Assembly (NCBI GenBank): GCA_026984515.1
Contig: JALSRZ010000082.1
Location: 1 to 58,129 of the forward strand
Reading direction: 5' to 3'
Origin: Thiohalobacter sp.
Lineage (GTDB): Bacteria; Pseudomonadota; Gammaproteobacteria; DSM-19610
Length of the DNA: 58,129 nucleotides
A program made the translations under genes and the position numbers. The first letter of the stretch is position 1. Each line of letters begins with the position of its first letter. The notes beneath the pieces were generated by a model. That model ran no database searches and was not told the origin of the DNA. It saw only the letters and a list, made by a program, of their open reading frames with translations. Below are positions 32,466 through 37,627 of this stretch, in pieces.

Positions 32466-32528
32466 TACGGGTTGGGCCTCCATACGCCCCATGCGGTAAC
32501 CCGAACTCAATCGGGCACCCAACCACAT
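32466..32528 (-). promoter_or_regulatory. rpsB 5-prime leader with nested inverted repeats (likely S2 autoregulation)
   Basis: GGTTGGG (32518-32524 in the coding sense) pairs with CCCAACC (32470-32476), a perfect 7-bp outer stem. An inner CCCGA/TCGGG hairpin lies at 32500-32515. Between them the coding strand reads GGGGCGTATGGAGG. It lies just upstream of the ribosome site AAGAGG. rpsB leaders in gammaproteobacteria are known targets of S2 feedback; that this one works so is inference. Confidence 0.65.
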
Positions 32529-32593
32529 GTGTCGACGTATGTGTGGATTTAAGTATTTGGAACCAGTGTTCCGTTCTGTACAGCAGATTGTCA

Positions 32594-32731: not shown

Positions 32732-33499
32732 ATGAGTGTAACGATCAAAACCGAAGAAGAAATTGAAAAAATGCGCGTTGCCGGCCGACTGGCTGCCGCG
32801 GTGCTCGACATGATCGAACCCCACGTTCAGGCCGGCATCACCACGGGCGAAATCGATCAAATCTGCCACGACTACATCGTCAACGAGCAACAGGCCATAC
32901 CCGCCCCCCTCAATTACCGCGGCTTCCCCAAATCTGTCTGCACCTCGGTCAATCACCAGGTCTGTCACGGTATCCCCGGCGACCGCAGGCTCAAGAACGG
33001 CGATATGCTGAACATCGATATCACGGTGATCAAGGACGGCTTCCACGGTGATACCAGCAAGACCTTCTTTGTCGGAGAAGCGCCACTGATCGCCCGGCGG
33101 CTGGCCAGCGTGACCTACGAATGCATGTGTACCGGCATCCGCATGGTCAAACCCGGCGCCCGCCTGGGCGATATCGGTCACGCTATCCAGCAACTCGCCG
33201 AATCGCACCACTACTCAGTGGTACGGGAATACTGCGGCCACGGGATCGGCCGCGAATTCCACGAGGACCCGCAGGTGCTGCATTACGGCCGACCGGGTAC
33301 CGGCATGCAGCTGGTAAAGGGCATGACCTTTACCATCGAACCCATGATCAACGTCGGCAAACGCCACACCAAACTGCTCAAGGATGGCTGGACGGTGGTC
33401 ACCAAGGACCACAGCCTGTCGGCCCAGTGGGAACACACCATCCTGGTCACCGCTGAGGGTTACGAGGTCCTCACCCTGCGGACCGGCGAATCGATCTGA
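32732..33499 (+). CDS. map: Methionine aminopeptidase type I
   Basis: Map removes the initiator methionine from nascent proteins. The 255-residue protein has the metal ligands in NIDITVIKDGFHGDTSKTF (two Asp), GHGIGREFHEDP (His), FTIEPM (Glu) and WEHTILVT (Glu). The start is the ATG at 32732, giving MSVTIKTEEEIEKMR. The upstream frame is open but non-coding. Its stop shares a base with the glnD start (TGATG), so the two are coupled. map lies opposite rpsB, as in E. coli. Confidence 0.98.
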   Translation: MSVTIKTEEEIEKMRVAGRLAAAVLDMIEPHVQAGITTGEIDQICHDYIVNEQQAIPAPLNYRGFPKSVCTSVNHQVCHGIPGDRRLKNGDMLNIDITVIKDGFHGDTSKTFFVGEAPLIARRLASVTYECMCTGIRMVKPGARLGDIGHAIQQLAESHHYSVVREYCGHGIGREFHEDPQVLHYGRPGTGMQLVKGMTFTIEPMINVGKRHTKLLKDGWTVVTKDHSLSAQWEHTILVTAEGYEVLTLRTGESI

Positions 33500-36183
33500 T
33501 GACCAACGGCGCGAACCCCCGGCACCCGACCCGGATACATCCCGAACACCGCTTCGCCACGGAGCAACTGGAACAGGCGTTGCAGGGCGACATCCCCTCG
33601 CCTTCCCTGTGCCGGGATTTCCTGCACAAGGCCAACCGGCAGCTGACCGAACAGTTCCACGCCGGCGCGGACATCGAAGACCTGGTACGCGGCCGCAGCC
33701 GGCTGGTCGACCAGGTGCTGATCCGCTGCTGGGAAAAACTGCTCGGCGACGTTGACGCAGCCCTGGTCGCCGTGGGCGGCTACGGGCGTAACGAGCTGTT
33801 ACCCGCTTCCGACGTGGACATCATGCTGCTGCTGGCCGAAGCGGAGGACCCCGTTACCGGGACAAGGCTGGAAACCTTCCTGATGTTGCTGTGGGATATC
33901 GGCCTGGAAGTCGGTCACAGTGTACGCACCCTGGAAGAGTGCCGGGAACAGGCAGAAGCCGACATCACGGTAGCCACCAACCTGATGGAGGCACGTCTGC
34001 TGAGCGGTTCCGCAACCCTGTTCCGCGACATGCAGCAGCGGGTCGGCCCGGACCAGGTCTGGCCCAGCCAGGATTTCTTTTCCGCCAAGCTGGCGGAACA
34101 GCAGAAACGCTATGAGCGTTTCGATGACGCACTTTACAACCTGGAACCCAACGTCAAGGAAGGCCCCGGCGGCCTGCGTGACACACAGATGATCGGCTGG
34201 GTGATGAAGCGGCATTTTGGCTTCAGCAGCCTGGAAGACCTGGTCGAGGAAGGTTCACTCACGGCTGGCGAATACCGGACGCTGACCGACGGGCAGCGCT
34301 TTCTCTGGAAAGTTCGCTTCGGCCTGCACACCCTCACCGGCCGTCGTGAAGAACGCCTGCTGTTCGAACACCAGCGCACCCTCGCCGGCCAGTTCGGGTA
34401 CCAGGACCGGGAGCACAAACTGGCGGTGGAATGGTTCATGCGCGACTACTACCGCACTATCCAGGAACTGAGCCGCCTCAACGAGATGCTGCTGCAGCTG
34501 TTCCGCGAGGTGATCCTGCATGCAGAGGATCCCTCCGAACCGGTCGCCATCAACCGCCGCTTCCAGTCCCGCAAGGGCTTCCTGGAAGTAACCGACGACC
34601 GTGTGTTCAGGCGTTACCCCTTTGCGCTGCTGGAACTGTTCCTGCTGATGCAGCAGAACCCGCAATTGATCGGGGTACGCGCTGCAACCATACGGCTGGT
34701 CCGCGATCATCGCTACCTGATCGATGAAAATTTCCGCAACGACCTGCGCTCCCGCAGCCTGTTCATGGAAATTTTCCGTCAGCCGCGCGGCCTGACACAC
34801 GAACTGAGGCGCATGAACCGCTACGGCGTACTGGCCGCCTACTACCCGGCGTTTGAACTGATCGTCGGGCAGATGCAGCACGACCTGTTTCACGCCTACA
34901 CGGTAGATGAACACACCCTGTTCGTGGTGCGCAACCTGCGCCGCTTCAGTGTCCGGGAGTTTGCACACGAGTTCCCGCTGTGCAGCCGGATATCGGACAC
35001 CATACCCAAACCGGAATTGCTGTACCTGGCCGGTTTCTTCCATGACATTGCCAAGGGACGCGGCGGCAATCACGCCGAACTGGGCGCACAGGAAGCACGG
35101 GCCTTCCTGGAACGCCACAACCTGAGCAGTTACGACCGGCGACTGGTTGCCTGGCTGGTGGAGAATCATTTACTGATGTCCCACGTCGCGCAACGCCGCG
35201 ATATCTCCGACCCGGACGTCATCAATGACTTCGCCCACCAGGTGGCTGACCGTACGCGCCTGGACTACCTGTTCCTGTTGACTGTTGCCGACGTGCGCGC
35301 CACCAACCCGACGCTCTGGAACAACTGGAAAGGTTCCCTGTTCCGCGAACTGTACAATGTCACGCGCCGCGCCCTGCGCCGTGGCCTGGAAAACCCGCTG
35401 CACCGCGATGAGCTGATCAGTGATATCAAGAACACTGCGTTTGCGGAACTGGAGCGCAAGGGTGTCAGCACCGGGCAGTTGCAGGCGCTGTGGAATGATT
35501 TCCCGGAAGACTATTTCCTGCGTCACAACGTGGATGAAGTCATCTGGCACGCACAGGTAATCCTGGAGCCGGGCAACGGCGACGGGGTCCGCGTCGACCT
35601 GTGTGAGCATTCGGAACGGGGTGGCAGCGCGCTGTTCATCTATACCCCGGTCACCGACCGGCTGTTCAGTCGCTCCACGGCGCTGCTGGACCAGCTGGGC
35701 CTGACGATTACCGACGCCCGTATCATCACTTCCCGGCGCGATTACGCCCTGGACACCTACCTGCTGCTGAACGCCGACGGCGAACCGATCACCGATCCTT
35801 ACCAGGCACAGGAACTGGTCACCATGATGCGGGAGGAGCTGTTATCCGGCGGTGACACAGCTGCTTCCGTATCGAGACCGACCCCGCGTCGCACCCGTTA
35901 CTTCAAGGTAGCCACACGGGTGCATTTCTACCCCGACGATACCAGCCGACGCACCCTGGTGGAGCTCTACACTACCGACTACCCGGGCCTGCTCTCCAAC
36001 GTGGGCCGGATCTTCTACCACTGCGGGGTCCGGTTGCAGAACGCCAAGATTGCGACCTTCGGCTCCCAGGCTGAAGATGTATTCTATGTCACCAGTAACG
36101 AAGGGGAGCCGCTCAGCGAAGAGCAGCAGGGGGAACTGCGGGAAGCCCTGATCGAGGCGCTGGACCAGGAAGCCAAAACGTGA
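33499..36183 (+). CDS. glnD: PII uridylyltransferase / uridylyl-removing enzyme
   Basis: GlnD senses glutamine and modifies PII proteins to set nitrogen metabolism. The 894-residue protein has a nucleotidyltransferase domain with VGGYGRNELLPASDVDIMLL (about 92-112), a central linker, an HD hydrolase domain with FHDIAKGRGGNHAELGA (about 513-530), and two C-terminal ACT domains (about 705-780 and 815-890). It overlaps the map stop by one base. The following dap genes are separated by a mobile element and a minus-strand pair. Confidence 0.97.
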   Translation: MTNGANPRHPTRIHPEHRFATEQLEQALQGDIPSPSLCRDFLHKANRQLTEQFHAGADIEDLVRGRSRLVDQVLIRCWEKLLGDVDAALVAVGGYGRNELLPASDVDIMLLLAEAEDPVTGTRLETFLMLLWDIGLEVGHSVRTLEECREQAEADITVATNLMEARLLSGSATLFRDMQQRVGPDQVWPSQDFFSAKLAEQQKRYERFDDALYNLEPNVKEGPGGLRDTQMIGWVMKRHFGFSSLEDLVEEGSLTAGEYRTLTDGQRFLWKVRFGLHTLTGRREERLLFEHQRTLAGQFGYQDREHKLAVEWFMRDYYRTIQELSRLNEMLLQLFREVILHAEDPSEPVAINRRFQSRKGFLEVTDDRVFRRYPFALLELFLLMQQNPQLIGVRAATIRLVRDHRYLIDENFRNDLRSRSLFMEIFRQPRGLTHELRRMNRYGVLAAYYPAFELIVGQMQHDLFHAYTVDEHTLFVVRNLRRFSVREFAHEFPLCSRISDTIPKPELLYLAGFFHDIAKGRGGNHAELGAQEARAFLERHNLSSYDRRLVAWLVENHLLMSHVAQRRDISDPDVINDFAHQVADRTRLDYLFLLTVADVRATNPTLWNNWKGSLFRELYNVTRRALRRGLENPLHRDELISDIKNTAFAELERKGVSTGQLQALWNDFPEDYFLRHNVDEVIWHAQVILEPGNGDGVRVDLCEHSERGGSALFIYTPVTDRLFSRSTALLDQLGLTITDARIITSRRDYALDTYLLLNADGEPITDPYQAQELVTMMREELLSGGDTAASVSRPTPRRTRYFKVATRVHFYPDDTSRRTLVELYTTDYPGLLSNVGRIFYHCGVRLQNAKIATFGSQAEDVFYVTSNEGEPLSEEQQGELREALIEALDQEAKT

Positions 36184-36186
36184 TGT

Positions 36187-36333
36187 CTAGCAGGCTGTTG
36201 AAAAAGTCTCTGGCGGCACGATCCGGCGTTGAAAACCGGCTCAAAATGCTCATTTACAACTGGTAAACTGCGCTTTTTCGCCGCTTTTCGCCTTGTCTCG
36301 CACTCGCCAGAGACTTTTTCAACAGCCTGCTAG
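36187..36333. mobile_element. 147-bp MITE-like element with 29-bp perfect terminal inverted repeats
   Basis: The ends 36187-36215 and 36305-36333 are perfectly inverted over 29 bases, beginning CTAGCAGGCTGTTGAAAAAG. The outermost CTAG on each side is itself palindromic, so it could be a target duplication or part of the repeat. The inside has no ORF. The GGCTGTTGAAAAA end resembles IS1182/IS5-like insertion sequence ends as I recall them, so this is probably a non-autonomous derivative. It sits between the convergent glnD and VOC genes and the stop codon of the VOC gene lies in its right end. Confidence 0.85.
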
Positions 36334-36704
36334 AATCGCTCGATCAGCTCGATACCATTTCCGTCGGGGTCGCGGCAGAAAAGCGCCCGCCGTCCCGAGC
36401 GGCTGCGGGTAAAACCGGTACCCGCAGCCTCCAGGCGTTGTTCCACTGCATCGAGACCGGTCACGATCAGTGCCGTGTGGCGGTCCCGCCCGGCATGCAC
36501 GGGCCGACCGCTCACGGGGTCGCAATTCGGCAGTTCCAGCAGGTGTATCTGCTGTGCACCGGCTTTCAGCCAGGCACCCTGGAATGACATCTCCGGTCGC
36601 GTCCGGTCCTGCGCAAGGCCCAGCACGTCCACGTAGAAACGCAGTGCAACCGCCAGGTCGGCCACCACCACGCTGGCATGATGGATTCCCAGGTACTCCG
36701 TCAT
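36330..36704 (-). CDS. VOC (glyoxalase/bleomycin resistance) family protein
   Basis: This 124-residue protein starts MTEYLGIHHASVVVADLAV and has the glyoxalase-type signature ALRFYVDVLGL. Candidate metal ligands appear in all four places: His in GIHHAS, Glu in IHLLELP, His in DRHTALIV and Glu in NGIELIERF. It could be a lactoylglutathione-lyase-like or dioxygenase-type enzyme; the substrate is unknown. The frame is open to 36776 but the ATG at 36704 overlaps the stop of the upstream transporter by 4 bases. Its TAG stop is supplied by the mobile element end. Confidence 0.87.
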   Translation of the reverse strand: MTEYLGIHHASVVVADLAVALRFYVDVLGLAQDRTRPEMSFQGAWLKAGAQQIHLLELPNCDPVSGRPVHAGRDRHTALIVTGLDAVEQRLEAAGTGFTRSRSGRRALFCRDPDGNGIELIERF

Positions 36705-37627
36705 TTCCTGCCACTCCCGACCTGCGCATGCGCCGCCAGGTAGGCGCCCGCCAGGATCAGGGCGCCACCGAGCCATTCCTGATTCTGTACCTGCTCACTG
36801 GTCAGTAACAGCGAAGACACCGCGCCCACCACCAGCTCAAACAGCAGGATGACGGCCGAGCGATGTACCGGCATGTGACTGACACCATAGATCACCGTTA
36901 CCGTCATGATCAGGAAACCCAGCCAGCCCAGCAGCACCGCACCCACCCAGGCGGACAGCTGCACGTCGGGCAGCGGCTGCTGCACTGCCAGGATCCAGAG
37001 CGCGGCGACCAGCGTGACGCCCAGCCAGCTGATCGAAGCCTTGGTATACATGGAAACATGCTGCGTCTTGCGCACCATGACATTGGCAAAGGAAAAGGCA
37101 AAACCGGAAGATACCGCCAGCCAGTCGGCTTCATCGCGCGGCCAGGGCATACCCATGGCGGGGTCCCATAACATGATCAGTGCGCCACTGATAGCTACCA
37201 CAAACACCAGCAGGCCGCTGGTGCCCGGGTGCTCGCCCAGCATCAGCCAGCCCAGTACCAGGGCCCACAGCGGGGACAGGTAAAACAGCAACAGCACCCG
37301 CACCACCGTGCCGTCGAGAATCGCCAGCACAAAGGCCACGTTGCACCAGCCGGTCGCCACCAGCATCAGTCCCAGGACCACCGGGTGCAGCCGCCAGTCC
37401 TCCCGGCTGCGCCACAGCCAGACCAGACCGACCGCGAGCGCGGCGCCGTAACTGGCCAGCGAAAGCCACAGCCCGCTCAGGCCCTGCTCCTCCAGCAGGC
37501 GCAGCGGGTACCAGACCAGTCCCCACAGCGTAGCCGTCAGCAGCAGGCTCAGTATAGGCAGGATTTGTTGATTGGACCGATTCACCGGATTCCGTATACT
37601 TCCGCTTCGATTCGCGCACACCAGCAT
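36701..37627 (-). CDS. DMT superfamily (EamA) transporter
   Basis: This 308-residue protein has ten predicted membrane helices in two EamA repeats, starting ILPILSLLLTATLWGLVWYP and with VVRKT-like sequence at the repeat junction (observed NVMVRKTQHVSMY). Such proteins export metabolites; the substrate cannot be told. The ATG at 37627 leaves only 3 bases to the divergent dapC start, so the GTG at 37585 is a plausible alternative start, giving a 294-residue protein that retains all helices. It is coupled to the VOC gene downstream. Confidence 0.87.
   Translation of the reverse strand: MLVCANRSGSIRNPVNRSNQQILPILSLLLTATLWGLVWYPLRLLEEQGLSGLWLSLASYGAALAVGLVWLWRSREDWRLHPVVLGLMLVATGWCNVAFVLAILDGTVVRVLLLFYLSPLWALVLGWLMLGEHPGTSGLLVFVVAISGALIMLWDPAMGMPWPRDEADWLAVSSGFAFSFANVMVRKTQHVSMYTKASISWLGVTLVAALWILAVQQPLPDVQLSAWVGAVLLGWLGFLIMTVTVIYGVSHMPVHRSAVILLFELVVGAVSSLLLTSEQVQNQEWLGGALILAGAYLAAHAQVGSGRK
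37572..37600 (+). promoter_or_regulatory. Candidate sigma-70 promoter for dapC
   Basis: TTGGAC (37572-37577) and TATACT (37595-37600) are separated by exactly 17 bases, 30 bases before the dapC ATG. It lies inside the 5-prime end of the DMT transporter frame, which supports the shorter transporter start. Confidence 0.6.

Follow-up and report, generated by a model that had tools for sequence, protein, structure and literature searches.

We found that a short palindromic element between the convergent genes glnD and VOC of Thiohalobacter sp. is best explained as a non-autonomous MITE of IS5 type, here called A, which entered a CTAG that was VOC's own stop and, through duplication of these four bases, left that stop intact; we put the probability of this reading at about 0.9. 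Observed directly were A and its duplication, its further copies, an IS with nearly the same ends, the YTAR target, a relative in which VOC has the same TAG, some congeners whose stops overlap, and a second element, B, in the same CTAG. In the proposed course of events, the MITE would have inserted into a CTAG that, in the likely ancestral state, was also the stop of convergent glnD, and the four-base duplication would have given each side a whole CTAG, with both reading frames unharmed. The window below is the whole stretch of DNA analysed (58,129 nt), and the host is the genome to which it belongs.

Architecture, copies and parentage of A

The features of the junction are collected in Table 1. 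A is short and non-coding with terminal inverted repeats (139 bp, 25-bp ends), and a CTAG on both flanks forms its target site duplication. The layout reads TGATGT-CTAG-CAGGCTGTTGAAAAAGTCTCTGGCG...CGCCAGAGACTTTTTCAACAGCCTG-CTAG-A, with three bases separating the glnD TGA from the left CTAG, and in the host only VOC uses the CTAG as a stop. Because CTAG is palindromic, inverted-repeat finders count both flanking copies into the arms, which then span 36186-36215 and 36305-36334 (30 nt, 100% complementary, 89 nt between). The earlier note, made from the letters alone, had given 147 bp with perfect 29-bp ends; the ends are indeed perfect, and the size was overstated by including the 4-bp CTAG duplication. 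Its placement of the element between convergent glnD and VOC was confirmed by the ORFs and both gene names by Pfam (GlnD_UR_UTase, E 2.8e-48; Glyoxalase, E 1.5e-13). Exact copies of the end 15-mer of A number two in the window, one at each end of the element. Folded as RNA, the segment 36184-36340 reached -81.8 kcal/mol against -40.55 ± 3.56 for shuffled sequences (z -11.6; 0/200 as good), in agreement with the very strong stem that had been proposed.

Table 1. Features at the glnD-VOC junction, in window positions.
Feature	Position	Strand	Remarks
glnD, PII uridylyltransferase	33499..36183	+	stop TGA 36181-36183
Target site duplication CTAG, left copy	36187..36190	.	YTAR duplications at other A copies too
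MITE A proper	36191..36329	.	139 bp; no ORF of >=40 aa wholly within
Left terminal inverted repeat of A	36191..36215	+	25 bp, perfect
Right terminal inverted repeat of A	36305..36329	-	25 bp, perfect
Target site duplication CTAG, right copy	36330..36333	.	complement contains the VOC TAG stop
VOC gene (glyoxalase superfamily)	36330..36776	-	convergent with glnD; start codon uncertain

A search of the host genome for full copies, as the earlier note had advised, returned nine dispersed copies of A at 87-100% identity across 109-147 query bases (assembly of 3.37 Mb in 189 contigs, completeness figure 99.99%); two of the nine are cut by contig ends, and there are two further fragments of ~50 bp. 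Among 56 genomes searched as relatives (host included, E 0.001), 13 had matches to A, some of them partial. When public genomes were scanned for the two 15-nt ends of A as a pattern, at least 117 stretches matched, and the matches listed comprised 115 distinct elements of similar length after L166 and L189 were dropped as duplicates of L151. The taxa among the matches listed include Gammaproteobacteria, Geobacter, Desulfobacterales, Nitrospirae, Planctomycetota, Gemmatimonadetes, Burkholderiales, a Spirochaetaceae and others; many of these genomes are MAGs, where misbinning is possible, and several phyla are represented.

Identical 4-mers flanked 67 of the 115 listed A-end elements, and 61 of those 67 were YTAR (CTAG 25, TTAG 14, CTAA 14, TTAA 8), the 4-bp target expected of IS5-derived elements; among the same matches YTAR stood on at least one side at 103/115 and on neither side at 12/115. 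The elements have ends and size in common, though not always the middle. Host A included, 59 of 116 copies resemble the middle of A enough to be oriented, and in these 59 GGCTCAAAATGCTCATTTA and TAAACTGCGCTTTTTCGCC are conserved, in part owing to that selection. The 8-base flanks of the A copies L097, L116 and L175 (G006, G007) match those of L042, L041 and L053 (MAG contigs CSMAG_2845, HyVt-581). Separately, L026, L035, L040 and L015 near 1501 carry a single end motif (CAGGCTGTTGAAAA) immediately after a YTAR, for which no inverted partner within 3 mismatches was found in the 3 kb examined; by eye, an unrelated hairpin follows the motif in L026 and L035, with a T run in L035.

Searched with A, plasmids of rhizobia, Microvirga and Methylosinus gave matches to the ends, 27-31 bases long. 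On plasmids of Microvirga lotononidis (L220), Sinorhizobium medicae (L221) and Rhizobium gallicum (L219), A-like ends bound 1526, 1511 and 1400 bp, respectively, each flanked CTAG/CTAG; the transposase is intact (363 aa) in the first, and its frame is broken in the second. Their ends equal those of A over at least 12 outer nt, with one end of each having 1 mismatch in 15, and blastn of A against the three elements matched the ends only. The Microvirga transposase belongs to the IS5 family by NCBIfam NF033581 (E 7e-84, 281.5 bits, cut-off 140) and carries the Pfam domains DUF772 and DDE_Tnp_1; among the best 30 of 304 plasmid records for this protein, those annotated name an IS5 family transposase. 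In L220:3005-4530 and L221:3005-4515, a further reading frame of ~110 codons, a possible passenger gene, follows the transposase and reaches the right end.

An IS5-type transposase of this kind presumably moved the host copy of A. Two of the three Pfam families matching the IS protein, PF05598 and PF01609 (the third is PF13751), had no match in the host genome or in G007, so A looks orphaned in the host assembly, where the parent transposase was not seen; nor did the Microvirga transposase match the host genome at E 1e-20. The IS with matching ends that the earlier note had asked for was therefore found on alphaproteobacterial plasmids, and none was seen in the host genome. With its duplication, its dispersed copies and IS5-family elements of nearly matching ends, A is a MITE in the full sense, where the earlier note had ventured only MITE-like. 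Although A is short, palindromic and intergenic, we give practically no credence to a REP/BIME-like or chance palindrome in place of a mobile element, given its target duplications, its discrete ends, the longer IS whose ends nearly coincide with its own and the dispersed copies in differing flanks, and chance was further rejected by the 30-nt perfect arms, the extreme RNA fold and the confinement of the end 15-mer to the two ends.

A known RNA family was rejected as an identity for A, the sole Rfam match at gathering score in the window being t44, elsewhere. This t44 RNA lies at 32471-32563 on the minus strand (79.8 bits, gathering 44), and the ORF that starts at it on the opposite strand is presumably methionine aminopeptidase-like.

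The VOC stop and the glnD-VOC junction in congeners

On the minus strand the 3' end of VOC reads GAG CGA TTC TAG, the TAG being the complement of 36330-36332. We compared this junction across 15 same-genus genomes with the glnD end, in 14 of which VOC adjoins. A was present at the junction in none of these 14 congeners, and its insertion is therefore young on the scale of the genus, as had been surmised from its perfect ends.

Of the relatives sampled, G007 is the closest (97% identity to the host in the glnD part); it has A copies elsewhere in its genome and none at this junction. Its VOC product ends in LIEQC* where that of the host ends in LIERF*, with the same TAG, within CTAG, at the same place. 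Here the CTAGs flank a 66-bp palindrome, CCCGCCTTTCTCACC...GGTGAGAAATGCGGG, with the glnD stop in the CTAG left of the insert and the VOC stop in the CTAG right of it, so both genes would have ended at a lone CTAG before insertion. Such an arrangement exists in 4/14 congeners, where the glnD and VOC stops overlap by 4 nt in one YTAR (CTAG in G005 and G008, CTAA in G015 and G014); overlapping stops in one YTAR are the likely empty site. The other ten consist of G007 with its insert, two genomes in which the overlap is larger, 13 and 17 nt (G004, G001), and seven in which 9-198 bases lie between the stops. In 8/14 congeners the stops have neither four bases in common nor a separating CTAG like that of the host. 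The shared CTAG is thus not universal in the genus, and besides G005 and G008 the case for it depends on G007.

These comparisons bear on the claim of the earlier note that the element provides the VOC stop codon, with the TAG inside the right terminal repeat. In the raw sequence the TAG does fall within the 30-nt inverted arm, but it belongs to the 4-bp duplication of the target, outside the repeat proper; G007 ends VOC at the same TAG with no A there, and in G005 and G008, too, VOC stops at a CTAG, which no element adjoins. A stop supplied by A is accordingly very improbable, and the comparison with relatives that the same note had recommended instead identifies the CTAG as the target.

The 66-bp insert of G007 resembles a member of a 176-bp family, B, that has lost part of its interior. 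A 66-bp form with the identical internal join also occurs at G007:C101, so the element was apparently mobile in its short form. In the host (G000), B is palindromic, CTAG-flanked and 176 bp long (e.g. L228:1462-1637). Scoring of 40 of 145 candidates gave at least 40 copies at 97-100% identity, and matches to the ends numbered 73 at <=1 mismatch, 52 of them exact. Several host contigs end in or near B. The longest stretch common to A and B is an 8-nt chance match, and both use YTAR, mostly CTAG; in two close relatives, then, one and the same VOC stop has received two unrelated elements. A parent IS for B was not found in the plasmid search (2 weak partial matches), no B end pairs 400-3500 nt apart occurred in the plasmid loci examined, and viral contigs contain B ends but with different interiors.

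Insertion sites and the putative terminator

CTAG occurs 12 times in the window against 95.9 expected from dinucleotide shuffles. A 341-kb sample of host sequence contained 66 CTAG sites clear of elements, of which 27 are stop codons, 24 are intergenic and 15 lie in called genes. Genes were called with a hexamer caller written for this analysis, not a standard program; in the 58-kb window it called 50 genes with 52.8 kb of coding sequence. With CTAG scarce and 27/66 sites being stop codons, CTAG-seeking elements reach gene ends without damage: CTAG is rare in host genes, common as a C-TAG stop and offers TAG on both strands, so a transposase cutting at CTAG, or YTAR, would land at gene ends without recognising stop codons.

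Among the nine host copies of A (one flank only for L005, L007 and L009), four (L001, L002, L004, L005) adjoin a called stop that lies within the duplication. For the cross-species sample, the 115 distinct elements among the matches listed gave 103 with YTAR and, after removal of six overlapped by a called gene, 97 copies. Stops were adjoined by 29 of these 97 against 16.2 ± 3.6 for GC- and motif-matched non-genic YTAR sites (p 0.0006, 5000 draws), an excess kept at four caller settings (23-30 vs 11.5-16.5 expected). The setting was convergent for 28/97 (16.8 expected, p 0.0024) and divergent for 15/97 (23.0 expected, p 0.03). The excess at stops was absent when the comparison was with YTAR sites elsewhere in the same intergenic region (28 vs 25.7, p 0.20, n=87), likewise at the other three caller settings, in what is a weak test with little power where YTAR sites are few.

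For B, we took the loci of 30 of the 40 scored copies and 30 of the 73 end matches, excluding from the counts copies with <300 bp of flank and ends with >1 mismatch. This gave 26 distinct sites among the matches listed, with CTAG on both sides at 15 and one inside a called gene. Fifteen of the remaining 25 adjoin a stop, two of them both convergent stops (L263, L264), as the supply of CTAG predicts (15/25 vs 27/51, p 0.55). Compared with 50 element-free non-genic CTAG sites, B lay between convergent genes at 15/25 vs 4/50 (p 2.8e-6) and in tandem gene pairs at 7/25 vs 39/50.

The excess of A-end copies at stops and the convergent bias of both families might suggest active targeting of stop codons or of the ends of transcription by cues beyond YTAR, such as a terminator structure or a paused polymerase. 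We consider this unlikely, since the stop excess disappears within the same intergenic region, B meets stops no more often than the CTAG supply provides, and the convergent bias is equally well explained by the loss of harmful insertions in genes and tandem pairs. The site pattern reads as target motif plus such loss, motif and tolerance being sufficient; under the IS5-type MITE reading, selection would have removed insertions elsewhere, in genes and in tandem gene pairs.

The hairpin of A, lying just past both stops, could plausibly end both mRNAs as a putative two-way terminator. By reading, an A5-stem-T5 layout is present on both strands, with the inner stem beside TTTTT; this fits a two-way terminator, and the convergent bias fits an element that would be polar elsewhere. 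The hairpin is absent from the output of a simple terminator scan, which took loops of 3-8 nt, as its 89 nt between the arms fall outside that range. In the 59 of 116 copies that could be oriented, inner-arm complementarity was 3.58 of 10 positions within copies vs 3.03 between, with subfamilies as a confounder; an earlier test on unoriented copies gave 3.9 within vs 4.8 between, of 15, probably from the lack of orientation. Covariation would back such a function at most weakly.

Whether A has been domesticated, being retained because it serves glnD and VOC as a two-way terminator, is doubtful. Its very strong fold, the layout on both strands and the bias of its relatives to convergent sites would agree with such a role, but with A absent from the junction in all 14 congeners it is too young for conservation to show, and the inner arms of its relatives are just slightly more complementary within copies than between them. 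In the reading we prefer, A arrived as an IS5-type MITE at a CTAG stop, and its hairpin may end transcription from both sides.

Comparison with known systems

The IS of root-nodule bacteria described above (L219, L220, L221) are like A in their ends and CTAG duplication and unlike it in size (1.4-1.5 kb). Escherichia coli IS5 is autonomous, unlike A, and its terminal repeats differ from those of A. The middle of A (query 34-109 or 46-112) has 75-78% matches on plasmids of the P. syringae group, which does not imply equivalence with MITEPsy1. Like the A-end elements, E. coli IS5 targets Py-T-A-Pu, with CTAG the commonest, and CTAG is under-represented in bacterial genomes; the paper, in the part available, concerns promoter hotspots and not gene ends (PMC5493358). 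MITEPsy1 of Pseudomonas syringae pv. phaseolicola, marked 'IS5?' in a table, duplicates 4 nt, CTAG or YTAA; it is short and non-coding like A, and its terminal repeat GGAAGGTCTGAAAAAGCC has TGAAAAAG in common with A, whereas its length is 100 nt (139 nt in A) and the outer 8 nt of its terminal repeat are different, and the accessible text is silent on stop codons and on the ends of convergent genes (PMC3189936). A review of bacterial MITEs calls MITEs that form Rho-independent terminators conceivable, and 'stop codon' and 'convergent' are absent from its main text as far as available (PMC10969869). Among titles and abstract openings, we found nothing making the stop-codon point for CTAG/YTAR IS5-type MITEs, and a literature search with the end sequences of A gave only papers on other topics, going by title and abstract.

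We tentatively propose a wider rule, which we hold to be possible at somewhat less than even odds. Since YTAR contains TAA or TAG on both strands, its 4-bp duplication would be a frame-safe way into stops; overlapping convergent CTAG stops would be a landing pad refilled repeatedly by unrelated elements; and in CTAG-poor genomes the IS5/YTAR rule would amount to built-in targeting of gene 3' ends, with such MITEs among the main sources of new two-way terminators at convergent gene pairs. The puzzle of a stop inside a transposon would thereby turn into a rule, in which the preferred IS5-type target reads as a stop codon on either strand and is preserved by duplication. If true, the rule explains the spread of IS5-type elements between genes with little damage, and it yields a prediction that can be counted in any genome with IS5-type MITEs. 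A itself belongs to a known class, the IS5-type MITEs; what is noteworthy is that the same VOC stop was filled twice by unrelated elements, by A in the host and by B in G007.
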